DNA from: Candidatus Sulfopaludibacter sp. SbA3
Lineage (GTDB): Bacteria > Acidobacteriota > Vicinamibacteria > Vicinamibacterales > UBA2999
Direction: 5' to 3'
Assembly: GCA_945876205.1 (NCBI GenBank)
Contig: CAMCNL010000004.1
Span: 1-44,502 of the forward strand
Length of the DNA stretch: 44,502 nucleotides
Under the pieces are notes generated by a model. It was not told the origin of the DNA. It saw only the letters and a list, made by a program, of their open reading frames with translations, and searched no databases. A program made the translations under genes and the position numbers. Below, piece after piece: positions 16,314 through 42,696 of the stretch (its first letter is position 1; each line of letters begins with the position of its first letter).

Positions 16314-16685
16314 ATGCGGGAAGCAGCAGTGGCCGCGTTGATCGCGGCGGGATTGGCGTTGGGGAGTGCCGGGCCGGCAGCGGCGCATCACTCGCACGCC
16401 ATGTTCGACATGACGAAGGAAGTGACGATTACGGGGACGGTCACGAACTACTCGTACCGAAACCCGCACGTCTTCCTGCATCTGGACGTCAAGGACCAGA
16501 AGGGCGAGGTCACCTCCTGGGCCGTCGAGATGTCGAACATCTCGAACATGCAGAGTCGCGGGATCTACCTGTCGACCTTCAAGCCCGGTGACGTCATCAC
16601 CGTGAAGATCAATCCGCTCAGAGACGGCCGGCTTGGCGGCAACTACACGTCGGTCACCGCGGCTGATGGAAAGCTCTACCAGTGA
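16314..16685 (+). CDS. Exported DUF6152 protein
   Basis: A 123-residue protein. Signal peptide 1-24 ends GPAAA, directly followed by His-His (HHSHAMFD). The domain shows the family landmarks: VTITGTVTNY, RNPHVFLHLDV, W-x-V-E-M, KPGDVITV and a final DG-x-L strand. The domain is beta-rich and periplasmic or surface-exposed; its function is unknown. It has an extra His at mature position 4. A ribosome-binding site AGGAGG precedes the ATG at 16314. The stop overlaps the start of the partner gene (GTGA), so both are made together. Confidence 0.82.
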   Translation: MREAAVAALIAAGLALGSAGPAAAHHSHAMFDMTKEVTITGTVTNYSYRNPHVFLHLDVKDQKGEVTSWAVEMSNISNMQSRGIYLSTFKPGDVITVKINPLRDGRLGGNYTSVTAADGKLYQ

Positions 16686-17722
16686 GGGCCGCCACCTGCG
16701 CGCTCGCCCTCAGCCTGGCCGTCGCGGCGCCGGCCGTCGCGCAAACCACGCTCTTCACGACCGACGACTACCGCAAGGACCAGGCGCGCTGGACCGATCC
16801 GGCGTATTTCGTCTTCAACACCGCGCGGCAGCTCACCGACATGCAGGTCGAGAACCGCTTCGGGCAGAAGGGAACCGGCGCCGACAAGTTCGCCCTCAAG
16901 AGTCCCTATCCCTTCAAGACGTCCGACGAGCACTACCAGGCGTGGCTGAAGAAGGCGAACGGCGGCACGACGCACACCCTCGCCACGCTGCCGAACTGGG
17001 ACGGCGTCTGGTCGGTGCGCTCGGGATGGCTCGACAGCAACGACATCCAGGCGAGCACGATGGCCGCGGCGCTGACGCCCACCTACCGCGAGTACTACGT
17101 GCAGCAGGCCAAGGCCGAGGCGGAAGGCCGCCACTGGTGGGCGGCGTCATTCTGCCTGCCCGACGGCTTCATTCGCGGCGTCTCGCGGAGCCCGCAGCAG
17201 TTCGTGATCCGCCCGAATCAGATCGTGATGCTGACCGACACCCTCGTCTCGACGCAGGTGCGCTGGGTGCACATGGACAAGGGCCATCAGACCCCCGAGC
17301 GGCAGTTCCCGCAGTGGCTCGGCGAGTCGATCGGCTTCTGGGACGGCAACGCCCTCGTCATCCACACCAACCAGATCAGGCAGTGGAATGCCAGCCACTC
17401 GCTCTTCGAGTGGAGCGACCAGCTGACGTCGGTGGAGCGCTACGAGCGCGTCGGGAATGAGATCGTCGCGGAAATCACCCTCTACGACCCGGTGGCGTTT
17501 CTCTATCCGCTGCACGCGGCGCTGCGGTTCACGCCGAACGCCAACGACCGCATGGTCTACAGCACGTGCACCGACACCAACGGTCCCTCGAGCAATATCC
17601 ACGTCAGGGCCGACGGCGTCACCGACGAGCGGGTGCCCGGAGATCCCGGTTATTGGGACCCGAACGACCCCCGTCCGTGGGCTGCGCACTATGCGATTGG
17701 CGAGCGCCGAACCGCGAAGTAA
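16682..17722 (+). CDS. Exported DUF6152-partner protein, long form
   Basis: A 346-residue protein beginning at GTG 16682, overlapping the previous stop by four bases. Signal peptide 1-20 (ends AVAQ). The core shows the partner pattern: LPNWDGVWSV, an exposed Cys in FCLPDG, then LGESIGFWDGNALVIHTN, LTSVERYERVG and EITLYDPVAF. Compared with the short partners it has an N-terminal extension of about 80 residues. No enzyme motif is visible. The gene pair (DUF6152 then partner) is the same arrangement seen at 30476/30087, 40927/40545 and 42310/42726 and as a fusion at 7715-8869. The function is unknown; it probably acts in the periplasm. Confidence 0.75.
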   Translation: MRAATCALALSLAVAAPAVAQTTLFTTDDYRKDQARWTDPAYFVFNTARQLTDMQVENRFGQKGTGADKFALKSPYPFKTSDEHYQAWLKKANGGTTHTLATLPNWDGVWSVRSGWLDSNDIQASTMAAALTPTYREYYVQQAKAEAEGRHWWAASFCLPDGFIRGVSRSPQQFVIRPNQIVMLTDTLVSTQVRWVHMDKGHQTPERQFPQWLGESIGFWDGNALVIHTNQIRQWNASHSLFEWSDQLTSVERYERVGNEIVAEITLYDPVAFLYPLHAALRFTPNANDRMVYSTCTDTNGPSSNIHVRADGVTDERVPGDPGYWDPNDPRPWAAHYAIGERRTAK

Positions 17723-17728
17723 ACCCCA

Positions 17729-17734
17729 TATAAT
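17729..17734 (+). promoter_or_regulatory. -10 element before the second partner gene
   Basis: TATAAT lies 28 bases before the ATG at 17763, with AAGGAGG (17746-17752) in between. This would allow the third gene of the run to be transcribed separately from the first two. Confidence 0.45.
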
Positions 17735-17762
17735 GCGCCTTGCCCAAGGAGGCGAGAGACAT

Positions 17763-18455
17763 ATGAGAGTCGCACTTACGACCGTGCTGCTGCTGACGAT
17801 CGCATATTCGCCGAACACGATTGAGGCGCAGTCGGCCGCGGCGCCGAAGTTGAACGGCATCTGGAACCGCGTGCGCGGCACCAACACCGAGCTGGCGCTG
17901 AACAAGCGCGCCATCGGGCTCCGTGACGCGATCGACGAGCCGCTGGCCGGCATGTATGACTGCCTTCCGGCCACCGTCCCGCACATCCTCGGCGACCCCT
18001 ACAACTTTCAGTTCGAGCAGAAGGCCGATCGCGTGATCCAGACCTTCGAGAAGGACGCCGTGGTCCGGACCATCTGGCTCGAGGGGCACGGCCACCATGC
18101 CGCCACGCCGAATGATTTCGCGCTGCAGGGATACTCGACCGGCCGCTACGAAAACGGGCAACTGGTGGTGACCACCTCGAAGTTCACCTTTGACGCCGGC
18201 GGCCTCGAAGATAAGCCACCGATGGTGCCGTCATCGACGAGAAAAAAGGTGACCGAGCGGTATTCGATGAAGGGCGATCACCTGATGGTCGAGGCGACCA
18301 TCGAGGATCCGATGTTCCTCCTGGAGCCGGCGAAATTCACGTTCGAGTTTCAGCCGACCAAGGACGCGCTGGTCGAGTGGCCGGAGTGCGATTCCGAACA
18401 GGCCAGCGAAGTCCTCAATTACATTCCTGACGATCAAAAGAAGTACGGCCGTTAG
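17763..18455 (+). CDS. Exported DUF6152-partner protein, divergent form
   Basis: A 230-residue protein; the ATG at 17763 follows AAGGAGG. Signal peptide about 1-22 (ends IEAQ). After LNGIWN come YDCLPATVP, PYNFQFEQ, VVRTIWLEG, GYSTGRYENGQLVVTTSKF, KKVTERYSMKGD and VEATIEDPMFL, which follow the same order of landmarks as the other partner proteins though with low identity. It ends DDQKKYGR. The next gene, 23 bases on, is a DUF6152 protein, so the pair order is reversed here. No catalytic motif is seen; the function is unknown. Confidence 0.72.
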   Translation: MRVALTTVLLLTIAYSPNTIEAQSAAAPKLNGIWNRVRGTNTELALNKRAIGLRDAIDEPLAGMYDCLPATVPHILGDPYNFQFEQKADRVIQTFEKDAVVRTIWLEGHGHHAATPNDFALQGYSTGRYENGQLVVTTSKFTFDAGGLEDKPPMVPSSTRKKVTERYSMKGDHLMVEATIEDPMFLLEPAKFTFEFQPTKDALVEWPECDSEQASEVLNYIPDDQKKYGR

Positions 18456-18478
18456 AGCCGACGCGAGGAGCCATTCTT

Positions 18479-18910
18479 ATGAAACGCAATCTCTCCGTGC
18501 TCGTCACGGCCATCGCGATCGCGGCCGGCATCCAGTGGTTCATCATTCCGGCCGACGCGCATCACGCCGAGGCGCCCTTCTATGACATGGAGCGGACCGT
18601 CGAGATCCGCGGCGTGGTCACCAAGTGGGCGTTCAAGAACCCGCATCCGTTCCTCTATGTCGACGTCACCGACGACAAGGGCGCGAAGACCGAGTGGACC
18701 ATCGAGTTCGTCGGTGCGGTGCGCCTGGCGAAGATTGGCTGGTCGCCGAAGACGTTCACGCCGGGAGAAATCGTGACGGTCAATGGCCATCCGTCACGGG
18801 CGGCCGACACGCACGGTATCAGCAGCGGCACCGTCGCGCGGGCCGACGGCAAAGTTATCCCCGGATCGGGGCGAGGCAGCAACACGCCCGAAGCGGTGTC
18901 CGGGCGGTAA
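18479..18910 (+). CDS. Exported DUF6152 protein
   Basis: A 143-residue protein. Signal peptide 1-27 ends PADA, directly followed by His-His (HHAEAPFYD). Family landmarks: VEIRGVVTKW, KNPHPFLYVDV, W-T-I-E-F and TPGEIVTV. It contains the RLAKIGW segment shared with the fusion at 7715-8869 (TRLGW). The C-terminal 25 residues are Gly/Ser-rich and likely disordered. CGAGGAG precedes the ATG. It pairs with the partner gene ending 23 bases upstream. A small hairpin (18915-18933) and a second inverted repeat follow the stop. Confidence 0.8.
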   Translation: MKRNLSVLVTAIAIAAGIQWFIIPADAHHAEAPFYDMERTVEIRGVVTKWAFKNPHPFLYVDVTDDKGAKTEWTIEFVGAVRLAKIGWSPKTFTPGEIVTVNGHPSRAADTHGISSGTVARADGKVIPGSGRGSNTPEAVSGR

Positions 18911-19821: not shown

Positions 19822-19831
19822 ACACGCTCCG

Positions 19832-20836: not shown

Positions 20837-20839
20837 ACG

Positions 20840-25461: not shown

Positions 25462-28400
25462 TTAGAAGTCGAACTGCGCGCCGATCCTCAGCAGACGGCC
25501 GCTCAGGATCTGCGTTGCGTCCCTCCACGCCGGACCATACGTAATGTTCTCGTTGATCACGTTGCTCGCGTTGAGCAGGTTGTAGACGTCGAGGCTGGGC
25601 CTGAGGCGGCGGTTGCCACCGAGACCGAACACGCGTGAGAACCGCAGGTCCACCTGCTGCAACCTCGGCTCGAACATCGTCTGCGGCGCAATCAACTCCA
25701 CCGTGCGATTCGCGTTGCACGTCGCCGCGGTGCCGCAGTCGGAGAGATTGCGGCCGAGTGACGGGGCGATCGCCGCGTTGCCGACGACGTAGCTGGCCGT
25801 GATCGGGATGCCCGAGCTGTTCTGGTAGATCACGCTGGTCGAGATGTCCCATGGCAGCGGATAGACCACGAGGAACTTGACCTGCGAACCCGCCGCCCAC
25901 GGCGGGGTCACCTTGCAGAAGCCCGGCCGCGCGTCCTGCGGTGAATCGACCACCAGGCAGTTGTCCGTGACCGTGCGGCCCATGCTCAGACCTCCCGACA
26001 CGATGCCGCCCTGGCCGAACCGCGCGTTGGTCGTCACGTCGAAGCCGTTGTAGACGCGGCTCAATTGACCGACGTCAGACGACGACACCGGCCGCGCGAG
26101 GTTCTCTGTCTGGCCGAAGAGCGCCGGCCTGACGTCGTAGAACCCGGTGAGCACCTGGCCGCTCGTCGGCAACCGCGGATCGGTTGGGGCGGTGACCCTG
26201 AACGGCGCGAAGTCCGCCGGCGTCACGCGCAGGTTGTCGTTGACCAGCAGGCACGTCACGGTGTTGGTGAGGCCGCTGCCGCCGCACGTGCCGCCGTACG
26301 ACGTGCGGTAGTAACCGACGGTCAGCCCGATGCCCGGCCGCAGCTCGTGCTGCAGGGAGATCGAGCTCTGCCAGTTGCCGTACTGCGCGTTGAAACCATT
26401 CAGCGCATCGTCGGAATAGCGTGTCGCGCCTCGGACCTGGCCGAAGGCCAGGTTCGACCACGGCCCGCACTCGCCGTTGGCGACCGGGTTGGTGAGCGTG
26501 CAGTCGGGGATGAAGTTCCTGTTGTTGTCGGCCCACGTCCGCGTGGTCGTGCGGACAAGGTTGTTCGCCGGGTTACCCGTGGCCACCTTGATGATCTCGG
26601 GATACTGGCCGAGCGAGAACTTCAGCGCCGTCTTGCCGTTGCCGAAGAGATCGTAGGCCGCGCCAAGCCGCGGGTTGAGATTGCGGTAGTGCGGCACTTC
26701 CTTCATCGGCGCGAGGCGCCGTTCTGGCACGAAGAAGCCCGCGCCGAGGATCTGCTCGGGCGTCGACGCATTGATGTCGTTGAAGCGAACGCCCAGGTTG
26801 AGCGTGAGCCTCCTGAACACGGTCCACTGGTCCTGTACGAAGAACGCGGTGTCCCACAGCGTTTCCTGGAACGCCCAGGGTGCGTCGCTGAGCGTGAGCT
26901 GGTTCGGCACGCCGTTGTTGAAGCGGTAGGCGACGCCCAGGCCATTCAAGTACTTGTCGAAGTTCAGCTTGGGATTGCCCTGGCTGGTTCTCCGCAGGTT
27001 GAAGCCGGTCTTGAAGCTGTGTGAGCCGGTGACGTACGAGATCGCGAAACGCTCCTGGTACTGCCGGCGCGGCACCCGGCGCGTGGCGTTCACGTTGCCG
27101 TAGGTCAGCGCCAGGCCCTGGTCGACGATCCGGATGTCCTTCTCGCTGCCCTCCTGCGTGCCGTCGAGCCCGCCGGCGCGGGTATCGTGCTGGTCGAGAT
27201 TCTGTGCGGAAATGCCGGCTTCGAGCAGCACGCGATTGCTGATCGGGCTCGTCCATGACAGTGCCGGGTTGTAGTTGGGCACGTATGCGTGTTCGCCCGC
27301 CGCTTCCGGCGTCACGCGGCCGCCGGTCAACAGGTTGAAGACGCAGTTGCAGTTGTTCTGGAACGAGCTCGAGAACGAGAACTTGTTCTTCTGCGTGGCC
27401 TGCAGCGTGAGGCGGACGCTGACGTCCTTGGAGTAGTCGTTGGTGGATGCGGGGCGGCTGAGGTCAGGCGCGTACGAGTAATTGCCCTCGGACTGTTTCG
27501 CCTTGTTCCAGTAGACGCCGTCGGCGAACTGCTGCGTCACGCCTTCGCGCGCGGCGAGGAAGAACCATAGCTTGTTCTGCCGGATGGGACCGCCGATGCC
27601 CGCACCGGTATCCCTGAACTTCTTCAGCGAGCCGACGCGATTGGGGTCGAGGTGGCGAGCCAGCAGCTCGGGGGTGATGTTGCTCGTCGCCAGGTCGGGT
27701 CCAGAATACGCCGCCGTCGCGACGCCGGAGAACACGTTGCCGCCATCCTTGGGCACCATGTTGATCTGCATGCCGCCGCTGTCGCGATCGGCGCCAACGC
27801 CGCTCGTCTCGACGACGACTTCCTGGATGCCAAGCTGGTTGTAGACGAACACGCCCTGCGTGGAATTCGGGAGCTGTTGATTCATCCCGTCCACGTACGG
27901 CTGCGCCTCGGGGCCGCCGTGCACGCTGTAGCGCGTCTGCGTGCGGTCGCTCGTGCCGCCGACGCCGCGGTTGAACTCCTGGGTGAGCGTCGCGCCGGGA
28001 AGAATGTCGGAGAGCACCGTCAGGCGTCCGGCGCCGGGCAGCGCCTCGATGGTGGCTTTTTCAAACTGCACCTGCGACGTCGAGCTCTGGACGTCGACGG
28101 TCGGCGCCTGTCCCGACACCGTCACCGTCTCTTCGAGCGAACCCACCGCGAGGTCGGCGTTCAACGTCGCGGCGAACGCGGCCTGCAGCTCGAAGCCGTC
28201 GCGCTTCAACGTTCTGAAGCCGGGCAGCGTGAACGTGATGGTGTAGCCGCCGGGACGCAGATCGACGATGCGATAGAGGCCCTGGCTGTCGGTGACCGCC
28301 GAGCGGACGCCCTCGATGAGCGCCGGACTGGCCGCTTCAACCGTGACGCCCGGGAGCACGGCTCCAGAGGTATCCCGCACGACACCGCTGATGCTGCTTT

Positions 28401-29268: not shown

Positions 29269-30087
29269 CTACTTGGCCGTCGTCTGGCTGGAGATGTCCT
29301 TGGTGTAGGCCTGCGCTTCCGACGCCGCGGGGATCATTTCCATCAGATCCACGTTGGCCGGTACCAATCGGAGCGGCAGCTTGTTTCGCGCGAGCCACGG
29401 CTTCGTGTAGACCTTCTGGTCGTCGATGGTGACCGTGAGCTCCAACATGTTCTGGCTGACACGCCGGTAGCGCTCTTCGACGCGCAGATCGGTGCTGTGC
29501 GGGCTGCCCGAGTTGTCGATCCAGGTGCGATCGTCCAGCCCGATCGTCTGGACGACGAAGGTGGCGTCGTCTTCCCAGCGTCCGACCGAGTAGCCGTACC
29601 AGCGCGGGTCGGGATCGGTGGGGAGCGCGCGTCCATCGGTCCAGATGACGCGCCATCGCTTCTCGAACATGTAGAGCATGACGACCTGCGTCGGCGTCTG
29701 GAACATCTGCACCGGACGCAGCTCGAAGGTCAGCAGCCGCGGGAATCCCGATGGATCACCAAGGGTCGACAGCGGATCGTTGATCTCGGCCACTGGTGCC
29801 GATCGCGGTCCGTTTCCCGGCTTGAACTTCTTCGCCATCTCGAGGCCGAGCGGCGTAAACGGCGCTTGCGCCGCGGCGCGCTCGTCGGCCTGTCCCGATC
29901 CGCCGATGCCGGCGCCACCGGCGTCCCAGGTGCCGGTGAGGTCGCGCGTGGGAGCGGGCCCGCTCGGCGGCGTCTTGAGCTCCTCATTGCTCAGCCCGGC
30001 GTAATTCCACGTCTGCGCGCCACTGACCGAAGAGAACGTCAGGACGGCCGCGCAGGCCACGAGCGACACGACGAAATGCTTGTGCAT
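29269..30087 (-). CDS. Exported DUF6152-partner protein, cassette I
   Basis: A 272-residue protein from the ATG at 30087 (GAGG about eight bases upstream; 30093 also possible). Signal peptide about 1-24 (ends VSGAQ). It starts TWNYAGLSNEELK and has DLTGTWDAGGAG, GDPSGFPRLL, WRVIWTDGR, DPDPRWYGYSVGRWEDD, DDRTWIDNSG, PHSTDLRVEERYRR and LELTVTIDD. It is clearly the paralog of 39721-40545. No enzyme motif is known; the strongly conserved W-x-IW-DGR and PHS-ERY blocks may form a ligand or metal site. The next gene (DoxX-receptor) begins directly after its stop, which implies coupled translation. Confidence 0.8.
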   Translation of the reverse strand: MHKHFVVSLVACAAVLTFSSVSGAQTWNYAGLSNEELKTPPSGPAPTRDLTGTWDAGGAGIGGSGQADERAAAQAPFTPLGLEMAKKFKPGNGPRSAPVAEINDPLSTLGDPSGFPRLLTFELRPVQMFQTPTQVVMLYMFEKRWRVIWTDGRALPTDPDPRWYGYSVGRWEDDATFVVQTIGLDDRTWIDNSGSPHSTDLRVEERYRRVSQNMLELTVTIDDQKVYTKPWLARNKLPLRLVPANVDLMEMIPAASEAQAYTKDISSQTTAK

Positions 30088-30104
30088 AGACATCCTCGCC
30101 GCCG

Positions 30105-30476
30105 CTACTTCAGGATCTCGCCGCTGGGGAGCGTGACGCTTCGGATGCGGCCCACCGCCGCGCCGCTCTTCACCGGCTGCAGCAGGACCGTGACCTCGTC
30201 GCCGGCCTTGAACGACGTCCGCTTCCAGCCTCGCTTCGACATGTCCGTGGGATTGCCGGCCTCGACCGCCCAGGTCTTGACCGCGCCGCTGGCGTCCTTC
30301 ACGTCGAACTTGAGGAAGCAGTGAGGGTTGAACCACGTCCACTCCGTGACAATGCCTTTCAGCGTCACTTCGGTCGCGGTATCGAATGTCGCCGCGCCAT
30401 GGTGCGCGACCAGCGGCGCCGATGACGCCAGCACGCAGACCACGGCAGACACCACGCCCAAGAGTCTCTTTCCCAC
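30105..30476 (-). CDS. Exported DUF6152 protein, cassette I
   Basis: A 123-residue protein starting at GTG 30476 after GGAGGTCC. Signal peptide about 1-21 ends PLVA, directly followed by His-His (HHGAATFD). Landmarks: VTLKGIVTEW, FNPHCFLKFDV, W-A-V-E, SKRGWKRTSFKAGDEVTV and a final SGEILK. It is close in sequence to the cassette II copy at 40553. It stands 17 bases before the partner gene and 152 bases after the receptor 3 stop, with octamer repeats between. Confidence 0.83.
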   Translation of the reverse strand: MGKRLLGVVSAVVCVLASSAPLVAHHGAATFDTATEVTLKGIVTEWTWFNPHCFLKFDVKDASGAVKTWAVEAGNPTDMSKRGWKRTSFKAGDEVTVLLQPVKSGAAVGRIRSVTLPSGEILK

Positions 30477-30550
30477 AGCTGGACCTCCCAAGAAATAAAT
30501 GATGCGAGAGCTTACCGCGGCTGAGTCTGGCTGGAGAGGGACTTTTTGGG

Positions 30551-30615
30551 CTGGGTAGCTGGGTAGCTGGGGTTTGCCCCTAGCCACCCAGCCACCTAGC
30601 GATTCAGCTACCGAT
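30551..30615. repeat. Inverted array of 8-bp repeats, locus 2
   Basis: CTGGGTAG repeated twice and a partial third on the plus strand face CTGAATCG, CTAGGTGG and CTGGGTGG on the minus strand. It is the same octamer and the same inverted layout as at 22093, lying between receptor 3 and the DUF6152 gene. Confidence 0.8.
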
Positions 30616-30628
30616 TGTGAGCGGCCCC

Positions 30629-33619
30629 CTAAAAGTCGAACTGGGCTCCCACGCGCAGCAGACGTCCATTGATGATCTGCGTGACATCCTGCCAGGACGG
30701 ACCGTATGCCGTGTTCATGGCGAGGACGCTGGCGGCGTTCAGCAGGTTGTAGAGATCGAGGTTCGCGCGAAGCCGCTTCGAGCCGCCGAGCGTGAACGTC
30801 CGCGAGAAGCGCAGGTCGATCTGCTGGTGGCGCGGCTCGAACATCGACAGGTTCGGGATCAGGTTGATCGTCCGGTTGGCGTTGCACGTTGCCGCGGCCA
30901 GCGCGCAGTCCGACAGGTTGCGTCCGAGTGACGGCGCGATCGCCGCGTTGCTGGCCACGAAGGTCGCCGCGACCGGGATGCCGGGGCTGTTCTGGTACAC
31001 CAGGCTGGTCTGGATCTCCCACGGCAGCGGGTAGACCGCGAGGAACTTCACGTCGGTCGCCGACGACCACGGCGGCGCCACTTCGCAGAACCCTTCACGC
31101 GCGGCCTCCGGTGAATCCACCACCAGGCAGTTGTTGGTCACGGTGCGTCCCACGCTCACGCCGCCCGAGAGCTGGCCGCCGCGTCCGAAGCGGCCGGTCA
31201 TCGTCGCGTCGACGCCGTTGTAGACGCGGGTGAGCGCGCCGCCGAAATCGGATGACGGTCGAACGAGGTTGTCGACCTGGCCGAACAGGTTGTTGCGCAG
31301 GTCGTAGAGACCGCACAGCCGGTTGCCGCCGCCGCCGGGCAGGCGGCTGTCAGCAGGTGCGGTGATGCAGTACGGATCGTGATCCGCAGGGGTGATCCGC
31401 AGGTTGTCGGTGACGTAGAGGCTGGTCTCCGCGCCGGGGATGCCGCTGCCGCCGCCGTCGCCGCCGTACCAGGTACGGAAGTAGCCGACGTTCACGCCAA
31501 GACCCTCGCGCAGCTGGTGCTGGATGGAAACGGCGCTCTGCCAGTTGTGGTACTGCCGGTTGAATCCCTCGAGCAGCCCGGGCTCGAAGTTGGTGCCCCG
31601 CACCCGGCCGAACGTGAGGTCCGACCACGCGCCGCACTCGCCGTTGGCGACGGTGTTTCTCAGCTCGCAGTCGGGGACGAAGTTGCGATTGGTATCGGTC
31701 CACGTCCGCGTCGTGGTGCGCGTGAGCGCGCTCGCCGGGTTGCCGGTCACCGTGCGGATGATGTCGGGATAGTGGCCGAGCGAGACCTTGAGCGCCGTTC
31801 TGCCGTTGCCGAAGAGGTCGTAGGCGGCGCCGACGCGCGGGCTCAGGTTCTGGTAGTGGGGCACGTTGCTCAGCGGCGCGAAGCGGCGCTCGGGCACGAA
31901 CTTGCCGGCCGCCAGCACCTGCTCCGGCGTTGACCCCGAGGCGTCATTGAAGCGCGCGCCGAGGTTGAGCGTCAGGCGGCGGATCGTCCACTGATCCTGC
32001 GCAAAGAGCGCGATGTCCCTCGTCGTCTCCTCGAAGTTCCACGGCGCATCGAGCAGCGTCAACTGGTTGGGCACGCCGTTGTTGAAGCGGTAGTTCACCG
32101 CGGTGCCGTGCATGCCCGCGTCGTGACCGAGCTCGTCGATGTTGCCGATGGTGGTGTGCCGGTAGTTGACGCCCACCTTGAACTGGTGCGTGCCGGTGAC
32201 GTAGGACATGGCGACGCGCGCCTGGTTCTGGCGGCGGGGCAGCGTGCGCGTGGCGACGTTGCCGTAGGTCAGGTTGAGCGCCTGGTCGGTGATCCGGTAG
32301 GACGTTTCATCCCAGCCGGGCTCGCGGATGTCGTTCTGGTTGTTGTTCTGCGTGCTCTCGCCCGCCTCGAACAGCAGGCGGTTGGTGGCCGGGTGCGTCC
32401 AGTTGAGGGCGCCGGTGTAGTTCGGGTTGTACTGATGCGGCCCGCCCGCTTCCGGCGTCAGCCGCGTGCCGGTCGTCAACAGGTTGAACCGGCAGTTGCA
32501 GTTCGGCTGGTGCGACGTCGCCAGCACGATCTTGTGCGTGGCGGCGGCTTGCCAGGTCAGGCGGACGGTGAGGTCTCTGGTGAAATCGTCGGTGTTCACG
32601 CGGCGGCTGAAGTCGGGCTCGTAGAGGAGCGAGGCCGGTTGCTTGAGCTTGTTCCACTGCGTGCCGTCGACGTACTGCTGGTTCACGCCTTCGCGCGCCG
32701 ACGCGTAGAACCACATCTTGCTCTGCTTGATCGGGCCGCCGAACGCCACGCCGGTCTCGCGGAACTTCTTGAGCGAGCCGACACGGTCCGGGTTCAGCTT
32801 CCTGGCGATCAGCGCGTCGGTGATGTTCTTCGTCTCCATCGCCGAGTTCGAGAACGCGAACAGGCCGGTGCCGGAGAACACGTTGCCGCCGTCGCGCGGC
32901 ACCATCTTCAACTGGGTGCCGCCGAAATCGGCTTCCGCATCGCCGCCGAAGCCGGCGACGACTTCCTGGATATTGAGCTGGCTGAAGACGAACACGCCGA
33001 TGGTGATGCCGGGGATCTGCTGATTGATGCCGTCGACAACCGGCTGCGCTTCAGGAGCGCCATGCACGCTGAAGCGGGTCTGTGTGCGGTCGTTGCCGCC
33101 GGCGCTGCGTTCGGCCGACGAGGTCAGGCTCGCGCCTGGAATGATCGCGTTCAGCAGCGCCAGGCGGCCGGTGCCCGGCAGCGCTTCGATGGTCTCGCGC
33201 TGAAACTGTGTCTGCGAGCCGGAGTTGCGAATGTCGACGACCGGCGCCTCGCCCGAGACGGTGACCGTCTCTTCGAGGGCGCCGACCGTCAGGTCGGCAT
33301 TCACCGTGGCCGTGAACTGCGCCTGCAGCTCGATGCCGTCGCGCTTCAAGGTGTTGAAGCCGGGCAGCGTGAACGTCACGGTGTACGGGCCGGGCCGCAG
33401 ATCGACGATGCGATAGAGCCCCTGGGCGTCGGTCACCGCGGACCGGGAACCCTCGATCAGCGCCGGGCTGCTCGCTTCAACGGTCACGCCCGGCAGCACG
33501 CCGCCCGACGTGTCTTTGACAAGCCCGGAGATGCTGCTCTGCGCCGACGCGGCGGCCGGTACCAGCAGGAGCAGCGACGCAATCACGACCACGGCGCGCG
33601 CGAGTCTCTGTACGCCCAT
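30629..33619 (-). CDS. TonB-dependent receptor 3, Oar-like
   Basis: A 996-residue receptor; GAGGGTGATCG precedes the ATG at 33619. Signal peptide 1-26 (ends ASAQ), carboxypeptidase-regulatory-like domain (about 28-112, DTSGGVLPGVTVEA), TonB-box-like ETVTVSG, plug (about 125-245) and barrel ending QFDF. It shares the cysteine marks HQPNCNC, PDCEL with NGECG and LCGLYDL with the other receptors. It begins 34 bases after the VOC gene stop, so both are probably co-transcribed. Its closest relative in the window by eye is receptor 2, which ends the same cassette. Ligand unknown. Confidence 0.9.
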   Translation of the reverse strand: MGVQRLARAVVVIASLLLLVPAAASAQSSISGLVKDTSGGVLPGVTVEASSPALIEGSRSAVTDAQGLYRIVDLRPGPYTVTFTLPGFNTLKRDGIELQAQFTATVNADLTVGALEETVTVSGEAPVVDIRNSGSQTQFQRETIEALPGTGRLALLNAIIPGASLTSSAERSAGGNDRTQTRFSVHGAPEAQPVVDGINQQIPGITIGVFVFSQLNIQEVVAGFGGDAEADFGGTQLKMVPRDGGNVFSGTGLFAFSNSAMETKNITDALIARKLNPDRVGSLKKFRETGVAFGGPIKQSKMWFYASAREGVNQQYVDGTQWNKLKQPASLLYEPDFSRRVNTDDFTRDLTVRLTWQAAATHKIVLATSHQPNCNCRFNLLTTGTRLTPEAGGPHQYNPNYTGALNWTHPATNRLLFEAGESTQNNNQNDIREPGWDETSYRITDQALNLTYGNVATRTLPRRQNQARVAMSYVTGTHQFKVGVNYRHTTIGNIDELGHDAGMHGTAVNYRFNNGVPNQLTLLDAPWNFEETTRDIALFAQDQWTIRRLTLNLGARFNDASGSTPEQVLAAGKFVPERRFAPLSNVPHYQNLSPRVGAAYDLFGNGRTALKVSLGHYPDIIRTVTGNPASALTRTTTRTWTDTNRNFVPDCELRNTVANGECGAWSDLTFGRVRGTNFEPGLLEGFNRQYHNWQSAVSIQHQLREGLGVNVGYFRTWYGGDGGGSGIPGAETSLYVTDNLRITPADHDPYCITAPADSRLPGGGGNRLCGLYDLRNNLFGQVDNLVRPSSDFGGALTRVYNGVDATMTGRFGRGGQLSGGVSVGRTVTNNCLVVDSPEAAREGFCEVAPPWSSATDVKFLAVYPLPWEIQTSLVYQNSPGIPVAATFVASNAAIAPSLGRNLSDCALAAATCNANRTINLIPNLSMFEPRHQQIDLRFSRTFTLGGSKRLRANLDLYNLLNAASVLAMNTAYGPSWQDVTQIINGRLLRVGAQFDF

Positions 33620-35756: not shown

Positions 35757-38696
35757 TCAGAAGTCGAACTGGCCCGTGAACCGCAGCATCCGTCCGCCCA
35801 TTACCAAGCTCACTTCCCGCCAGGTGTTGCCGAACCGAGTATTTTCCTGCAGAACGGCGTCTTCGTTGAACACGTTGTAGAGATCGGCGTTCGCTGTCAG
35901 GCGGGCGCCTCCAACACGGAAGATTCGGCTCAGGCGCACATCTATCTGCTGCAACCGTGGCTCGAACAGCGTCTGCGGCGCGACGATGTCCTTCGTGACG
36001 CTCCGCGCTCCGCCCGCGAGGCTACGGCCAAGCGACCGAGCCACGTCCGCGTTGCTCACGACCGTGCTGGCGGTGTACGAAATACCGGGATTGTTCTGGT
36101 ACACGGCGCTCGTTCGCAGGTTCCACGGTAACGGATAAACGATCAGGAACTTGACCTGCGTCCCAGCGGACCATGGCGGTGTGACTTTACAGAATTCATC
36201 GCGCGCCGTTTCCGGTGAGTCCACCACCAGACAGTTGTCGAGGACCGTGCGTCCCACGCTGACGCCTCCCTGGAACTGGCCGCCGGCTAGGAACCGCCCG
36301 TTCAACGTGACATCGACTCCGTTGTACACCTGGCGTTGATCGCCGTAGTGCGACGACTGCGTAACCAGATTGTCAACCAGGCCGAACTTCGCGGCCCGGA
36401 GGTCGTAGAAGCCGCACAGCTGCTCGCCGCTGGTCGGCAGCCGTGAATCCACTGGCGCGGCGATGCAGTACGGATCGTAGTCGGCCGGCGTGACCGCCAG
36501 GTTGTCGGTTGCAAGGAAGCCGCCGTACCAGGTGCGGAAATATCCGACGTTCAGCCCCATCCCGGGCAGTAGCTGGTGCTGCACCGACGCGGAGGCTTGC
36601 CAGTTATAGGCTTGCTTGTTGAAGCCCCCCAACGCATCGTCGGCATAGCGCGTCGTCACTTCTCGCGCCTTGCCGAACCCGAGGTCGTTCCACGGGCCGC
36701 ATTCACCCTGCGCCGCCGGATTGCGCAGATCGCAATCGGGCACGTAGTTGCTGTTGACGTCATTCCACGACCGGCTGGTGGTGAGCGACATGTTGGCGGC
36801 GGGATTCGAGACGGGGGCGATTTCGACCCCGACGTACCGTCCAATCGACGCCTTCACGGCCGTCCGCCCATCGCCGAACAGGTTGTAGGCGGCGCCGACG
36901 CGCGGGTTAAGGCTGCGGAACAGCGGGTTGTTCTTCGTCGCGGCAACCGTGCGCTCGGGCACGAACGGACCGGGCGGTAGCACCTGTTCGGGCGTGGATC
37001 CCTTCCACTCGGAGTAGCGCACGCCCAGGTTCAGGGTCATACGGTTGATGGTCCACTGATCCTGCGCGAACAGCCCGGTGTCGAGGACGCTGCCGCGGAG
37101 GCCGTGCGGCACGGCCCAGATGGTGACCGTTTCGGGCACGCCGTTGCGGAACGTGTACGAGCGGCCCTGGTTGATCTGGTTTGGATCGGTGAAGCGTCCG
37201 GGCCCCGGGTCGGCAAACTCGCTGAGGTTTATCCCCGCCTTGAGGTTGTGCGCACCCGTGAGGTACGACACCGCGAACTTCTGGTGGTACTGCTTGACGG
37301 GGTTGACCGTATAACTGCCGGTCTGGGTCAGGTTGAGCGCGCGCGAGTTATAGAGCCGGTTCAGGCCGATATCGGTGATCGAAATATCGTCGAGGTCTAC
37401 TTCCAACTGACGCTTGGTGTGATTGGTGGCGATCTGCGCGGAGCCGGCCGCCTCGAACAACAGCTTTGACGTCGCGGGCGACGTCCAGGTCGCCATCGGA
37501 ATATACAGTGGGCTGTAGGTATGCTGCCCGACCGCTTCCGGCGCGGTCAGCACCGCGGGTTCCACCAGCATGTAAAAACAGGTGCAGTTCTTCTGCACCG
37601 AAAGCAGGCCGGCGAAGCGGTTCTTCGGGCTCGCTTGCCAGGTGACACGGGCAGTGATATCCCGGAAGCGCTCTTTGGTGAACGCCGGGCGGCTCTCGTC
37701 GGGCGTGTAGACCATCGAGCCCTGCGTCTTGTTGTAGAAGTTGCCGGTCTGATACTGGCCGGTGCCGCTGATGCGCGATGCCGTATAGAACCAGAGCTTG
37801 TCGCGCAGGATCCGGCCGCCGATGCCGCCGCCCACGTCGAAGGACTCTTTCAGTCCGCCCGACTGCTGCAGCTGCCTCGAGAGCCCGCGGGCGCGGAGCT
37901 GATCCGAGAGGTTGTCGGCCTGCATCGCCCCGGTCACATGGGTCGCGCTGAACGTGCCGGAGAACTTGTTGCCGCCGTCCTTGTACACGTAGTTCAGCAC
38001 CGAGCCGCCGCTGAACGATTCGGCCGAACCAGCGCCGGTTTCCACCACGACTTCCTGGATGGCGTGCGTATTGAAGCTGTAGATGGTGCGGCCGCCCAGC
38101 AGGACCTGATACATCCCGTCCACGGACTGATCCACCGTGGGTCCGCCGTGGATGCTGAAAGCGCCGCGCTCACCCTGGATGCCGCCGACATCGTGGTCCG
38201 ACGGCCGGGTCACGGTCGCGCCCGGAAGGATCGCCGCCCATGAGGCCATGCGCCGGTTCACCGGAATCGCCTGCAGCGTCTCTTCGGTGATCTGGGTTTG
38301 CTGCCGGACGTTCACGACGTCGACGACCGGCGGCGCGCCACTGACGGTAATGGTCTCCTCGACCGAGCCGACCGCCAGGTCGGCGTTCACGGTCGCGGTG
38401 AATGCCGCCTGCAGTTCCACCGCGTCGCGGCGCAGCGACTGGAAGCCCGCGAGGCTGAACGTCAATGAGTAGGTACCGGGGCGGAGGTCGACGAACCGGT
38501 AGCGGCCTTCCTCGTTGGTGATCGCCACCCGATTGCCCTCGATGAGCGCCGGGCTCGTGGCTTCAACGGTGACGCCAGGCAGGATGCCGCTCGACGTGTC
38601 GCGCACTACGCCGGTGATAGCACTTTGCGCCCATCCAACGGCGGGCAGGAACACGACGCACGCCAGGACCACTCCAAGAATGCGATGAATCTTCAT
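35757..38696 (-). CDS. TonB-dependent receptor 4, Oar-like
   Basis: A 979-residue receptor; GAGAGGAACC precedes the ATG at 38696. Signal peptide 1-23 (ends GWAQ), carboxypeptidase-regulatory-like domain (about 25-108, DTSSGILPGVTVEA), TonB-box-like ETITVSG, plug and barrel ending QFDF. It is more diverged than the other three: the NCNC mark is NCTC here, and GGSVLNYVYKDGGN replaces the GGMQLN form seen in receptor 1. It is the last gene of cassette II, 148 bases after the DoxX gene. Ligand unknown. Confidence 0.9.
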   Translation of the reverse strand: MKIHRILGVVLACVVFLPAVGWAQSAITGVVRDTSSGILPGVTVEATSPALIEGNRVAITNEEGRYRFVDLRPGTYSLTFSLAGFQSLRRDAVELQAAFTATVNADLAVGSVEETITVSGAPPVVDVVNVRQQTQITEETLQAIPVNRRMASWAAILPGATVTRPSDHDVGGIQGERGAFSIHGGPTVDQSVDGMYQVLLGGRTIYSFNTHAIQEVVVETGAGSAESFSGGSVLNYVYKDGGNKFSGTFSATHVTGAMQADNLSDQLRARGLSRQLQQSGGLKESFDVGGGIGGRILRDKLWFYTASRISGTGQYQTGNFYNKTQGSMVYTPDESRPAFTKERFRDITARVTWQASPKNRFAGLLSVQKNCTCFYMLVEPAVLTAPEAVGQHTYSPLYIPMATWTSPATSKLLFEAAGSAQIATNHTKRQLEVDLDDISITDIGLNRLYNSRALNLTQTGSYTVNPVKQYHQKFAVSYLTGAHNLKAGINLSEFADPGPGRFTDPNQINQGRSYTFRNGVPETVTIWAVPHGLRGSVLDTGLFAQDQWTINRMTLNLGVRYSEWKGSTPEQVLPPGPFVPERTVAATKNNPLFRSLNPRVGAAYNLFGDGRTAVKASIGRYVGVEIAPVSNPAANMSLTTSRSWNDVNSNYVPDCDLRNPAAQGECGPWNDLGFGKAREVTTRYADDALGGFNKQAYNWQASASVQHQLLPGMGLNVGYFRTWYGGFLATDNLAVTPADYDPYCIAAPVDSRLPTSGEQLCGFYDLRAAKFGLVDNLVTQSSHYGDQRQVYNGVDVTLNGRFLAGGQFQGGVSVGRTVLDNCLVVDSPETARDEFCKVTPPWSAGTQVKFLIVYPLPWNLRTSAVYQNNPGISYTASTVVSNADVARSLGRSLAGGARSVTKDIVAPQTLFEPRLQQIDVRLSRIFRVGGARLTANADLYNVFNEDAVLQENTRFGNTWREVSLVMGGRMLRFTGQFDF

Positions 38697-38844
38697 CGGT
38701 TGGTTCCTCTCGTGATTAGGTGACAGGGGATTGACGCCGTACTCTGAGTAGTCGCTGACAGCGGAGGAACAGCGGGAGATCTATACCATATCTCCCCGCG
38801 GCCCGGCCGCTGTACTTCGGCTCCCGACCATCCAGCTATCCCAC

Positions 38845-39705
38845 TTACACCAACGTCGGTGCCGGCGCCGGGACGGGGGTGACGCGTCCGCGCCGCGATT
38901 GCACGAGGCGATCGAGGCTGAAAGGACCCGGCCCGGCGGCCCAGAAAAACAGATACAAGAAGCAGAAGAGAATCGCGGCTTCCTGGTTCGGTTCGCGGAA
39001 GCTTCCCCAGAACCCTTCGGGCGCGTGGCTGATGAAGTAGGCAAAGGCCATCTCACCCGAGAGCAGGAAAGCCAGCGGACGCGTGAACAGGCCGAGCATG
39101 ATCATCGGCCCGCCTAACATCTCGAGCACCATCGCCAGCGCTCGCAACGACGTCAGATCCAGCGTCGGCGCAATCTTGCCGCTTCCGTGAAAGATGAAAA
39201 GAAACCCGGCGACGATGCGCAGGACCGTCAGCGAATACGCGGCCCATCGGGGGTGAGACACCGCGCCCGCATCCCGCTTCAGCCACCGGTCGAGGCTCAA
39301 GGGTCCTGGTCCAGTGAGCGACAGGTAGACAAAGAACAACGCCGGCAGCACGAGGTGATCGGTCGGCGCCCCGCGCGAACCAAACAGCCGGCTCCCCTCG
39401 AGCAGGTACTCGGGCAGCGGCTCGACGAGCCAGTACAGCAGGTGTGCGACGCCGAGTAGCAGCGCGACCGGCCGTGTAAACAGGCCGAGCATGATCAGCA
39501 AGCCGCCCGGAAAGCAGAGCAACTTGAGCGCACCGAACGGGGAGGCGGCTTGAACATCGAGCCAGGAGCCCGGAAACCCAAGCACCTGCTCCATGCCGTG
39601 GCGAAATACGAGGAAGCCGAAAATGATCCGGGCGAGGCTTTGAAGCTCGGGCGTCCATCGCGACGGGATGGACGCCGCCATCGCCGCGCCCGGTGACTTG
39701 ATCAT
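38845..39705 (-). CDS. Double DoxX-type membrane protein, cassette II
   Basis: A 286-residue inner-membrane protein made of two DoxX-like four-helix units. Unit 1 has IIFGFLVFRHGMEQVLGFP and LLIMLGLFTRPVALLLG; unit 2 has IVAGFLFIFHGSGKI, MIMLGLFTRPLAFLLSGEMAFAYF and EPNQEAAILF. The C-terminus (RRGRVTPVPAPAPTLV) ends in a stop, unlike the sister copy at 25462-29268. DoxX proteins are linked to quinone or thiol redox chemistry in some bacteria, but most have no known role. Start 39705 (MIKSPG) or 39681 (MAASIPSRW); no strong ribosome-binding site is seen, and it starts 15 bases after the partner stop, so coupling is likely. Confidence 0.85.
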   Translation of the reverse strand: MIKSPGAAMAASIPSRWTPELQSLARIIFGFLVFRHGMEQVLGFPGSWLDVQAASPFGALKLLCFPGGLLIMLGLFTRPVALLLGVAHLLYWLVEPLPEYLLEGSRLFGSRGAPTDHLVLPALFFVYLSLTGPGPLSLDRWLKRDAGAVSHPRWAAYSLTVLRIVAGFLFIFHGSGKIAPTLDLTSLRALAMVLEMLGGPMIMLGLFTRPLAFLLSGEMAFAYFISHAPEGFWGSFREPNQEAAILFCFLYLFFWAAGPGPFSLDRLVQSRRGRVTPVPAPAPTLV

Positions 39706-39720
39706 CGGAAGGAGTCGGAG

Positions 39721-40545
39721 TTACGGCGTCCGGGTCTGGTCGGCGACGTCGGTCTTGAATTCCCTGACTTCGGAGGCGGCGTAGACCTGTTCGAGGAAAT
39801 CCGTACCATCGGGCAGCCGCTTCAACGGCAGCCGGTCGCGTGATTGAAACGGCCTGGTGTAGACCTTCGGGTCGTCGATGGTGACGGTCAACTCGAGCAC
39901 GTTCATCCCAGTCCGGTGATACCGCTCCTGCACGCGCATGGCGTCACTGTGCGGGTAGCCACCGCTGTCGATCCAGGTTCGATCGGTCATGCCAACGGTA
40001 TCCACGACGAACGTGGTGTTGTCTTCCCAGCGCCCGACGGAGTAGCCGAACCATCGCGGATCAGGATCCTCCGGCAGCTTCCGGCCGTCGGTCCAGATGA
40101 TGCGCCAGGTCTGGTTGAACGAGTACATGATCAGAACCGCCTTCGGTGTCTGGACGATTCGGATCGGCCGGAACTCGTAGTTGACAATCCGGGGGAAGCC
40201 CGAAGGATCCCCCTGCGTCGTCAGCGGATCGTTGCCGTCGTAGACCTTCGCTGAATACGGGCCGTGCCCCGGCCGGTTTCGCGACACCATCTGCTGACCG
40301 AGCGGCGTGAGCGGTGGCGTGTTCCTGCCGGTAAAGTAATTGTCGCCACCGGCGATCCCCGCGCCGCCCGGATCCCATTCACCGGTCAGGTCGCGTTGCG
40401 GCGCCGGCCCGCCAGCGGCGATCGCTGCGAATGCGTCGTTGCTCAATCCGGGAAAACCCCAGGTCTGCGCCATGGCGCGGGGTGCGCAGATCGCCAGCGT
40501 CGTCACGATCGTGGCGGCGACCGTCAGTCGCGTGCGCATAGTCAT
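39721..40545 (-). CDS. Exported DUF6152-partner protein, cassette II
   Basis: A 274-residue protein from ATG 40545. Signal peptide about 1-26 (ends AMAQ). It has the same block order as 29269-30087: TWGFPGLSNDAF, DLTGEWDPGGAGI, GDPSGFPRIV, WRIIWTDGR, DPDPRWFGYSVGRWEDN, DRTWIDSGG, PHSDAMRVQERYHR, LELTVTIDD. It starts seven bases after the DUF6152 stop and ends 15 bases before the DoxX start, so the three form one operon. Function unknown; the many conserved aromatic and acidic residues suggest a binding site rather than a structural protein. Confidence 0.82.
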   Translation of the reverse strand: MTMRTRLTVAATIVTTLAICAPRAMAQTWGFPGLSNDAFAAIAAGGPAPQRDLTGEWDPGGAGIAGGDNYFTGRNTPPLTPLGQQMVSRNRPGHGPYSAKVYDGNDPLTTQGDPSGFPRIVNYEFRPIRIVQTPKAVLIMYSFNQTWRIIWTDGRKLPEDPDPRWFGYSVGRWEDNTTFVVDTVGMTDRTWIDSGGYPHSDAMRVQERYHRTGMNVLELTVTIDDPKVYTRPFQSRDRLPLKRLPDGTDFLEQVYAASEVREFKTDVADQTRTP

Positions 40546-40552
40546 CGTTCCT

Positions 40553-40927
40553 TTACTGGAGCTTGGTGCCGTCAGCCAGCATCACGTTCTTGATCATGCC
40601 GACCGGCGCACCGCTTTTGGCGGGCTGGATCAAGATGGTCACGGCATCGCCCGCGGCGAACGAGCGCCGCGACCAGCCGCGTTTCGACACGTCCGCGACA
40701 TTGCTGGTCGCCACCGCCCAGTTCCGGACGGTACCGTCAGCGTCTTTGACGTCGACTCTGAGAATGCAATGTGGATTCGACCAGGTCCATTCCGTGACCG
40801 TTCCCTTGACCGTGATCTCGTTCTCGGTGTCGAAGGTCGCGGCGCCGTGGTGCGCCAGCATAACGCCGGGCTGCGACAGGAACAGAATCCCAGCAACGAC
40901 AAGCGCGCTCATCAGCGTCTTACGCAC
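40553..40927 (-). CDS. Exported DUF6152 protein, cassette II
   Basis: A 124-residue protein. Signal peptide about 1-25 ends VMLA, directly followed by His-His (HHGAATFD). Landmarks: ITVKGTVTEW, SNPHCILRVDV, W-A-V-A, SKRGWSRRSF and a final DGTKLQ. It is the close paralog of 30105-30476, sharing the NPHC variant with a cysteine after the conserved His. The ATG at 40927 follows GGAGGT. It stands 37 bases after the NHL gene stop. Confidence 0.83.
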   Translation of the reverse strand: MRKTLMSALVVAGILFLSQPGVMLAHHGAATFDTENEITVKGTVTEWTWSNPHCILRVDVKDADGTVRNWAVATSNVADVSKRGWSRRSFAAGDAVTILIQPAKSGAPVGMIKNVMLADGTKLQ

Positions 40928-40964
40928 AGACCACCTCCATGGCGCGCATTATCCACCTAAGGGG

Positions 40965-42155
40965 CTACCGTTCCAATACGAATTTCTGCACCCGCCCGGC
41001 CCCGCCAACCTCACCGACGTAGAGGTTGCCTTGAGAGTCGACGGCAATTCCATTGGGAGTGTAAAACTCGCCGGCCATGCGACCTTTGTGGCCGACCGAG
41101 CCGACGATGGCGCCGTCGTCGCGCCGCAGGATCCAGACCACGCCGTTGGTGCCATCCGATACGAACATGTACTTCTGCTTCGGATCGTGCGAGAACGCCA
41201 CATCAAATACCCGCTCGCCGCCGCCCGCCGCCGCGCGGTACAGGAAGAACTCCTTGACGAACTTGCCCTGCGTCGTAAACACCTGGATGCTGTCGCCGCC
41301 GCGATTGCAGAAATACACCAGTCTGTCCACGGAGATCTTCACGCAGTGGCTGGTCGGGGTGAAGTGCGTGCGGGGCGGGCCGGCCGGATCGAATTCCGCC
41401 ACCGGATCGTTGTCGATCTCGCTGAGCGAAACACCATGGCCGCCCCAGCCGCGCTTGAATGCACCGCTGGCCAGGTCGTACACCAGGATGCGCTTGTTCA
41501 ACTGTGCGTCATCGACGAAGAGCTCGCCTGTCTCGGCATCGATCGTCGGATTGGTAGGTCCACGCAGAAGATAGTCGGTCTGCTGGTTGTTCGGCTTCTG
41601 CTGACTGGCGGGTACGACCGGGCCGCGGCGACCGAATTCGCGAAGAAACGTGCCGTCGGGTGTGAACTGCAAGAGGGTGTCGCCTGCGTCGTTACCTCCA
41701 ACCCAGACGTTGCCCTCTTTGTCGAGCGCCAGAGCGCGGACTCGTCTTTGGTACATCGGCTTGCCGCCGGGCAGGTATCCGTCTTTCTTGCCCCACGCGT
41801 ACACGACCTCGCCGGCCTGGTCAAACGCCATCACGGTCGGCGGGGTTCTGCAGCATAAGGCAGCGGGCGGATTCTGCTCCAGGCCCGCCTCTGCCTTGGT
41901 GATCTCTTCGCCGCGCGTGATGATCCAGACGCGATCTTGTTTATCGACCGCGACGCGGGGAATATCCTTCATCAGCCAGTTGTTTGGCAGCGGCTTCGGC
42001 CAGTAGGGGTCGACCTTGTAGCGCGGCACGGGCACGTCGCCTTCTCCGCTTTGCGCCTGCCCGGGTGAAGACACACCCAGGGCGACGACGGCAGCCAGAT
42101 AGGTCAAGCCAAGCACCGCCCGTTTCCTCGCGCGTTTCTGAGAATCGGTTCCCAT
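40965..42155 (-). CDS. Exported NHL-repeat beta-propeller protein
   Basis: A 396-residue protein; AGAGGAGGC precedes the ATG at 42155. Signal peptide about 1-35 (ends GQAQ). The rest is a propeller with repeated blades such as VRALALDKEGNVWVGG, NPTIDAETGELFVDD, VFDVAFSHDPKQKYMFVSD and PNGIAVDSQGNLYVGEV. A CCRTPP motif and a CNRGGDSIQVF blade give possible disulfides. The family resembles SMP-30/NHL and peptidyl-amidating-lyase propellers, but I see no full set of their metal ligands, so an enzyme activity is not assured. It leads the long minus-strand run and is divergent from the DUF6152 gene at 42310. Confidence 0.8.
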   Translation of the reverse strand: MGTDSQKRARKRAVLGLTYLAAVVALGVSSPGQAQSGEGDVPVPRYKVDPYWPKPLPNNWLMKDIPRVAVDKQDRVWIITRGEEITKAEAGLEQNPPAALCCRTPPTVMAFDQAGEVVYAWGKKDGYLPGGKPMYQRRVRALALDKEGNVWVGGNDAGDTLLQFTPDGTFLREFGRRGPVVPASQQKPNNQQTDYLLRGPTNPTIDAETGELFVDDAQLNKRILVYDLASGAFKRGWGGHGVSLSEIDNDPVAEFDPAGPPRTHFTPTSHCVKISVDRLVYFCNRGGDSIQVFTTQGKFVKEFFLYRAAAGGGERVFDVAFSHDPKQKYMFVSDGTNGVVWILRRDDGAIVGSVGHKGRMAGEFYTPNGIAVDSQGNLYVGEVGGAGRVQKFVLER

Positions 42156-42309
42156 GCTGCCTCCTCTAAGTAGTGTTGCCGTGGGCGGATTCTACACACT
42201 TCTCTCGGCCGCGAGGGATGTCTCTGAGGCATTGGCGCAGTCAGCCGCCAGGATGGTAAACTCCGCGTCGATTCTCGCGATCCAGAGTCCCGTTCTGGAG
42301 GTTTTAACA

Positions 42310-42696
42310 ATGAGACAGCACTCCCTGGCCTTCATCCTCTCGGCTGTCGGTCTCGTTGCGACTGCGCCACCAGCGTTCTCCCATCACGGCACCGCTGCCT
42401 ACGACACCACGAAAACGGTGACCGTGAGCGGCACGGTCACGGAATTCAGATTTGCGAACCCCCACGTCCTGCTTTTCCTGGAATCGAAAGACGAGGCCGG
42501 CAACGTCACGCGCTGGGTCGGGGAGCGCGGCGGTCCGAACTCGATGGCGCGGAATGCGGGTTGGACGAGTAAGACCATCAAGCCGGGAGATCAGGTGACG
42601 ATCACCGGCCGTGCTGCCAAGAACGGGACGCCTACCATGGCCATCTCCAAAATCATCCTGAACGGCGCGGAATTGTCCATGGGCGGTAACGACTGA
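42310..42696 (+). CDS. Exported DUF6152 protein
   Basis: A 128-residue protein with ATG 42310, preceded by GGAGG. Signal peptide about 1-24 ends PAFS, directly followed by His-His (HHGTAAYD). Landmarks: VTVSGTVTEF, ANPHVLLFLES, SMARNAGWTSKTIKPGDQVTI and GTPTMAISKI. It is the most diverged of the six copies: the DV after NPH is replaced by ES. It stands 29 bases before its partner gene on the same strand and is divergent from the NHL gene. Confidence 0.82.
   Translation: MRQHSLAFILSAVGLVATAPPAFSHHGTAAYDTTKTVTVSGTVTEFRFANPHVLLFLESKDEAGNVTRWVGERGGPNSMARNAGWTSKTIKPGDQVTITGRAAKNGTPTMAISKIILNGAELSMGGND

Follow-up and report, generated by a model that had tools for sequence, protein, structure and literature searches.

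Metal proteins with an N-terminal histidine have reshaped thinking about copper enzymes, and further families that carry such a site continue to emerge one by one. In lytic polysaccharide monooxygenases (LPMOs) and in CopC, the N-terminal histidine that signal-peptide cleavage leaves behind binds copper. CusF is a small periplasmic copper protein with an oligonucleotide/oligosaccharide-binding (OB) fold; it holds Cu(I) or Ag(I) through His, Met, and Trp residues inside the barrel, and an N-terminal histidine is not part of its site. Here we examine DUF6152 (PF19649), a family of putative secreted proteins that is present in six copies in a 44,502-nucleotide stretch of DNA from the acidobacterium Candidatus Sulfopaludibacter sp. 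SbA3 (assembly GCA_945876205.1, contig CAMCNL010000004.1, positions 1 to 44,502 of the forward strand; this whole stretch is referred to as the window). A preliminary description of the window had likened DUF6152 to LPMOs and CopC and had proposed that it could be an undescribed histidine-brace metal protein.

Other families of this kind have been described by signal strapping, namely DUF4198, DUF6702, and the two anglerase families Ang-1 and Ang-2, all N-terminal-histidine metalloproteins (PMC12537917). Binding of Ni or Cu has been shown by experiment for families identified in this way, and such signatures can predict real metal sites; the further conserved histidine is His18 in DUF4198, and His28 and His32 in DUF6702 (PMC12537917). 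DUF6152 is absent from the families listed in that work. It shares with them secretion, a histidine at the predicted mature N-terminus, a conserved downstream histidine, and the lack of a prior function. The difference is that these four families are beta-sandwich/Ig-like or permease-fused, whereas DUF6152 has a predicted OB fold, an invariant second histidine, and a calycin-like partner protein. In contrast to theirs, its histidine triad is invariant in every member read.

Among the first 25 Pfam families listed as matches of 67 DUF6152 members, there was none to DUF4198, DUF6702, LPMO, or CusF families, nor to CopC at an E-value of up to 1. DUF6152 would share with LPMOs and CopC the principle of an N-terminal histidine produced by signal cleavage together with a second histidine, and to this extent the earlier comparison holds. 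It does not extend to fold or sequence profile, the predicted fold being OB rather than the Ig/FnIII-like beta-sandwich of LPMOs; by these two measures DUF6152 is neither an LPMO nor a CopC. Like CusF, DUF6152 would be a small periplasmic protein with an OB fold, but the invariant residues of DUF6152 are histidines only. The PF19649 entry gives no function, and the histidine triad, the OB fold, the partner, and the expansions reported below are new in the present analysis. In the literature searched, we found no mention of DUF6152 or of DUF6644, a membrane protein family discussed below, and no combination of a histidine brace with an OB fold.

Three invariant histidines in an expanded family

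The six DUF6152 copies of the window match PF19649 at 80-102 bits, well above the Pfam cut-off of 27. As the preliminary description had stated, a His-His pair directly follows an A-x-A-like site in six of six (PAGA, PAAA, PADA, PLVA, VMLA, and PAFS), and a further histidine lies in an Asn-Pro-His motif that ends at residue 28 or 29 of the window copies. That observation was right and understated, since the pattern extends far beyond six copies. A PF19649 search of the whole genome to which the window belongs (4.06 Mb) returned 69 DUF6152 loci, all 69 over the curated cut-off. Every one of these copies has His1 and His2, preceded at position -1 by Ala in 67, Ser in one, and Gly in one, and every one has a third histidine at residue 27-30, mostly within Asn-Pro-His. 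An alignment of 67 genome copies, which are 21-64% identical to the first sequence, contains only three invariant columns: H1, H2, and H28. The same three residues, and these alone, reach 100% in 252 distinct members from Acidobacteriota and Gammaproteobacteria (effective number 119, median identity 36%), followed by P27 (99%), N26 (95.5%), and W45 (92%). A class-wide search of gammaproteobacteria returned six very divergent members (32-44 bits), all of which keep A|HHGW, where the bar marks the presumed cleavage site, and the Asn-Pro-His motif.

Some DUF6152 loci were found with a pattern containing HHS; the family-profile searches carried no such strict requirement, although the HH pair does add to the profile score. 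The contig scan used an 11-row subset of the 67-row alignment. Because this subset favors the HHSFxAEFD subtype, the statements on conservation draw chiefly on the genome searches with the family profile.

DUF6152 has undergone extreme paralog expansion. Genomes of 3.5, 3.7, and 2.9 Mb contain 120, 98, and 76 copies, respectively (G302, G303, and G299; loci L164-L193), and gammaproteobacteria are among the highest-copy genomes. Genomes of the window's own taxonomic family carry between 0 and at least 69 copies. At 69-120 copies in 3-4 Mb, we estimate that DUF6152 accounts for some 2-4% of the gene content of certain bacteria. One metagenome-assembled genome labeled Acidimicrobiia (G304, record VFYY01000049.1; L156, L194-L200) carries 67 copies; its contig coordinates are identical to those of a genome placed in the window's own family (G681), and thus the record label looks wrong.

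Signal cleavage, predicted fold, and a putative metal site

The stretch that precedes the His-His pair resembles a Sec signal peptide, with a hydrophobic core, Pro at -4 (60%), Ala, Val, or Leu at -3, and Ala at -1 (93%). Directly before His1 lies a site (site 0) that conforms to the (-3,-1) rule in 245 of 253 members, and from these sequence features the protein is likely cleaved there. A later cleavage site is part of an alternative in which the histidines bind no metal: the three of them would stabilize the fold or form a partner-docking surface, or the pair would be cut off with the signal peptide after residue 5. Residues 3 and 5 are indeed small in most members. The distance between hydrophobic core and cleavage site speaks for site 0. 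As a yardstick, we used the A-x-A|Q sites found at the same loci in a partner protein family (X, described below). The median distance is 6 residues for site 0, 6 for the yardstick, and 11 for the site after residue 5; this last site lies at least 9 residues from the core in 94% of members, versus 21% in the yardstick. With a crude cleavage matrix trained on X, site 0 was the commonest choice (132/253), though not by an overwhelming margin. Our two home-made matrices are weak, one having been trained on 17 sequences and both being affected by the Gln that follows the X site, and the simpler core-distance comparison was therefore retained. In a simple rule scan, site 0 was not separable from upstream Ala-rich positions, and its lack of a downstream site arose solely from its exclusion of charged residues and His from the c-region. 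Conservation also favors cleavage before His1, since a pair inside a discarded signal peptide would be expected to drift, yet HH is 100% invariant behind the canonical -4, -3, and -1 residues. One divergent member (L272:5968-6318) has a twin-arginine-like start, RREFVQL, which would suit export of a folded, perhaps metal-loaded protein.

The mature protein encoded at 40556-40852 was modeled with AlphaFold2 from the 67-row alignment, giving a mean pLDDT of 94.6 and a pTM of 0.86. The order of elements (strand 13-23, strand 29-36, strand 42-49, helix 52-57, strand 70-78, strand 84-92) is that of an OB fold, and His28 is located at the turn into strand 2. Foldseek matched the model to generic OB folds in the PDB, such as LysRS anticodon-binding domains, PriB, and SSB, with a probability of 1.0 and no E-value below 0.001. 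Consistently, the Pfam matches listed for the 67 members comprise, besides DUF6152, weak ones to OB-fold nucleic-acid families. Sequence searches of the PDB found no convincing relative; a match to an adhesion protein, like the Usher matches, covers beta-strand stretches only and was treated as chance.

Direct-coupling analysis of 267 sequences, restricted to variable columns, recovered the expected strand ladders (32-46, 34-44, 37-43; 71-90, 75-85, 77-83; 14-74, 19-69). It also coupled residue 7 with residue 30 (z 4.8, rank 4 of 3599) and residue 6 with residue 30 (z 4.0), while the highest z over 20 shuffles of the N-terminal arm was 3.9. Scores among H1, H2, and H28 were discarded as an artifact of invariant columns. 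These couplings would place the N-terminal arm beside His28 and make a shared site plausible. Structure prediction had been proposed in the preliminary description as a way to see whether the three histidines meet; the model provides a confident OB fold with His28 at the start of strand 2, and covariation suggests that the arm lies near it.

That three histidines are the sole invariant residues of a secreted family with such high divergence is naturally read as a metal site at the mature N-terminus, which is by inference well supported. The earlier idea of a metal protein was good and is now stronger, though unproven: histidine invariance and arm covariation support the N-terminal site, while brace geometry and copper as the metal are speculative.

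Several observations weigh against a metal site. The legal cleavage site after residue 5, H-H-(S/A/G)-x-(A/S)|, occurs in 216 of 253 members and its use would remove the HH pair. The first ten residues of the model average a pLDDT of 78, versus 95-98 elsewhere, and the rank of the F7-I30 coupling varies from 1 to 101 across 60% subsamples. The literature searched yielded no metal, spectroscopic, or N-terminal sequencing evidence for DUF6152, and tallies of the top neighbor families contained no classical copper genes and no Cu or Ni transporters. Finally, a standard brace leaves the invariance of His2 unexplained. One metal bound by the side chains of both residues 1 and 2 is considered unlikely (PMC12537917), so that His2 needs a separate explanation; possible roles are chelation via the amine, the amide, and His2, a second-shell position, or contact with a partner. 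The lower model confidence in the arm and the unexplained His2 both fit proteins without metal. Set against the strict conservation of HH and the remoteness of the later cleavage site from the hydrophobic core, they leave the no-metal alternative distinctly improbable, and its docking variant meets a further difficulty in the genes that surround DUF6152.

The partner family X and the gene neighborhood

Every DUF6152 copy of the window has an X gene beside it or fused to it. In the genome as a whole, a same-strand X lies within 3 kb of 57 of the 69 DUF6152 genes; for 53 of these, the two are fused or no more than 300 bp apart. Of the 12 genes that lack a paired X, some are located at contig ends. 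Control regions (twenty 20-kb pieces) held 2 X among 286 genes, and a single-query search gave 90 X matches in the genome, where this large family thus has about 90 or more copies; from these two figures we estimate that only 1-2% of random genes would have an X close by on the same strand. Pairing is also seen in four other high-copy genomes, where 16/17, 12/13, 16/18, and 9/11 of the DUF6152 genes that were read have an X, and one of these genomes has six DUF6152-X fusions. X also exists outside the pairing, as at L240:4666-6399, where two X genes occur with no DUF6152 gene in the same 20-kb piece.

The 59 X members had no meaningful match in Pfam, and NCBIfam gave nothing useful. X begins with a lipocalin-like D-L-x-G-x-W motif and has two conserved Cys residues. 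An AlphaFold model of the X encoded at 42726-43478 (pLDDT 88.7, pTM 0.85) was matched by Foldseek to cellular retinoic-acid, retinol, and fatty-acid binding proteins (E 1.6e-4, probability 1.0, target TM about 0.55-0.62). From this model, X would be a calycin-like barrel, secreted and perhaps able to bind a hydrophobic molecule. Its predicted fold matches that of these intracellular lipid-binding proteins, but X differs from calycins in its lack of a Pfam or NCBIfam sequence family, its greater length, and its two conserved Cys. Most X signal peptides are apparently cut before Gln (A|Q), the +1 residue being Gln in 83% of sites from an unsupervised fit, and such cleavage would permit a pyroglutamate N-terminus.

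The window shows the pairing in several arrangements. On the minus strand, the DUF6152 gene at 40553-40927 (mature chain from 40852, His1-His2 codons 40847-40852), whose product was used for structure prediction, is directly followed downstream by an X gene at 39721-40545, a DoxX-family membrane protein at 38845-39705, and, as the last gene of the run, a CarboxypepD_reg outer-membrane protein (Oar/TonB-receptor-like) at 35757-38696. This order of DUF6152, X, DoxX, and outer-membrane barrel recurs on the same strand with DUF6152 at 30105-30491 (mature chain from 30404, His1-His2 codons 30399-30404) and X at 29269-30093. The DUF6152 start in this second case, within an open reading frame of 30105-31070, is probably near 30443-30491. 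Downstream, a single open frame at 25462-29268 encodes a DoxX domain and a CarboxypepD_reg/OMP_b-brl_4 barrel with no intervening stop, whereas the corresponding genes at 35757-39705 are separate; either a fusion or a sequencing error could account for this. At 37 bits, the DoxX protein at 38845-39705 falls short of the cut-off of 80 for HvfX, a family of maturation proteins of copper-binding RiPPs (ribosomally synthesized and post-translationally modified peptides); this match probably reflects general DoxX similarity. On the plus strand, a DUF6152 gene at 42310-42696 (mature chain and His1-His2 codons from 42382, the latter to 42387) is paired with the modeled X at 42726-43478; this copy had been given as 42154-42696, and its start is most likely near 42310, with 42154 too early. 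A longer plus-strand run consists of DUF6152 at 16314-16685 (mature chain from 16386, His1-His2 codons 16386-16391), an X at 16682-17722 whose start overlaps the DUF6152 stop, a second X at 17763-18455, and another DUF6152 at 18479-18910 (mature chain from 18560, His1-His2 codons 18560-18565). The sixth copy, previously placed at 7715-8869, is present, but here spans 7715-8884 on the minus strand (mature chain from 8797) and is a natural fusion of signal peptide, DUF6152, a Gly/Pro-rich linker, and an X domain (7715-8539).

Among 142 neighbor genes, 20 encode CarboxypepD_reg outer-membrane barrels (Oar/TonB-receptor-like), versus 3 of 100 control genes. Other neighbors include metallo-beta-lactamase-fold proteins (10), propellers, c-type and multiheme cytochromes, esterases, a tannase-like protein, and amidohydrolases.

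Low-copy genomes show a different arrangement, in which DUF6152 adjoins DUF6644 (PF20349) proteins with four transmembrane segments, often in tandem pairs (L017:4419-5452, L275:7884-8860, L276:7036-7497, L269:5046-5507, and L273:2762-3226). Five single-copy genomes (G225, G241, G179, G579, and G518) have eight DUF6644 genes in all, every one of them no more than about 2 kb from the sole DUF6152. The six divergent HHGW members each have a DUF6644-like neighbor and none has an X, yet they retain all three histidines. Docking to X is thus not the reason for the histidines in this subgroup, and a general requirement of HH for docking to X was set aside. DUF6644 has one invariant His, one Lys, and one Arg, which suggests a heme- or metal-binding membrane protein. 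Its layout recalls CopD (PF05425), being colinear over the conserved His and Lys, but kinship with CopD or HemJ was not confirmed, with an hhalign probability below 3% against shallow CopD and HemJ alignments.

The association with DUF6644 bears on a second alternative, that DUF6152 is a non-catalytic carrier or sequestering protein, like CopC, DUF4198, and DUF6702, that passes metal to a membrane protein such as DUF6644. X would then be a later addition, and the expansion would serve uptake of metal-ligand complexes via the neighboring barrels. Both the single-copy genomes and the divergent members agree with such a role, as do the outer-membrane barrels that adjoin X, and DUF4198 and DUF6702 bind metal with little or no oxidase or peroxidase activity (PMC12537917). 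In contrast, 60-120 copies per genome exceed any plausible need of metal homeostasis, DUF6644 has no significant similarity to the CopD or HemJ profiles, and the top neighbor families include no Cu or Ni transporters. On balance we regard a carrier as possible, but on the doubtful side.

A proposed two-protein module

The reading that we prefer is that DUF6152 and X form a periplasmic metal protein, most likely with Cu(II), and its dedicated hydrophobic-ligand partner, amplified in the way of an uptake or catabolic module. DUF6152 would be exported and then cut by signal peptidase I right before His1, as its sequence pattern indicates. The mature chain would be a five-stranded OB barrel, with its short N-terminal arm packed close to His28 at the beginning of strand 2. 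A transition metal, most likely Cu(II), would be bound in a brace-like manner by three nitrogens, two from His1 (its free amine and its imidazole) and one from His28, with His2 as a putative alternative or second-shell ligand. In most copies, the metal protein would cooperate with the adjacent or fused calycin-like X, which would bind a hydrophobic small molecule, and the unit often stands beside a presumed outer-membrane importer. Multiplication of the unit by tens would be expected if DUF6152-X pairs specialize for many ligands. The arrangement with DUF6644 membrane proteins is simpler and may be ancestral. Taken whole, this explanation seems to us modestly probable.

Whether the metal would perform redox chemistry on the ligand or merely be carried is a matter of speculation, and because of the copy number we lean slightly toward a ligand-linked, oxidative role rather than bulk metal homeostasis. 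The boldest form of this idea would make DUF6152-X a periplasmic copper-dependent oxidative enzyme of a new class, with an OB-fold, N-terminal-histidine metal subunit paired or fused with a calycin substrate-binding subunit, and with 60-120 diversified versions per genome to attack many different hydrophobic natural products; this we consider unlikely.

If the metal-protein hypothesis is right, DUF6152 would add an OB-fold variant to the N-terminal-histidine metal proteins, one unusual in being organized as two proteins. The family is very large and unnamed, and it combines a three-histidine signature and a newly recognized partner with a fold for which the literature searched holds no histidine-brace link. 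Proteins that were hypothetical would thereby become a module with testable chemistry, and a handle on how abundant, uncultured Acidobacteriota may deal with metals and hydrophobic compounds.

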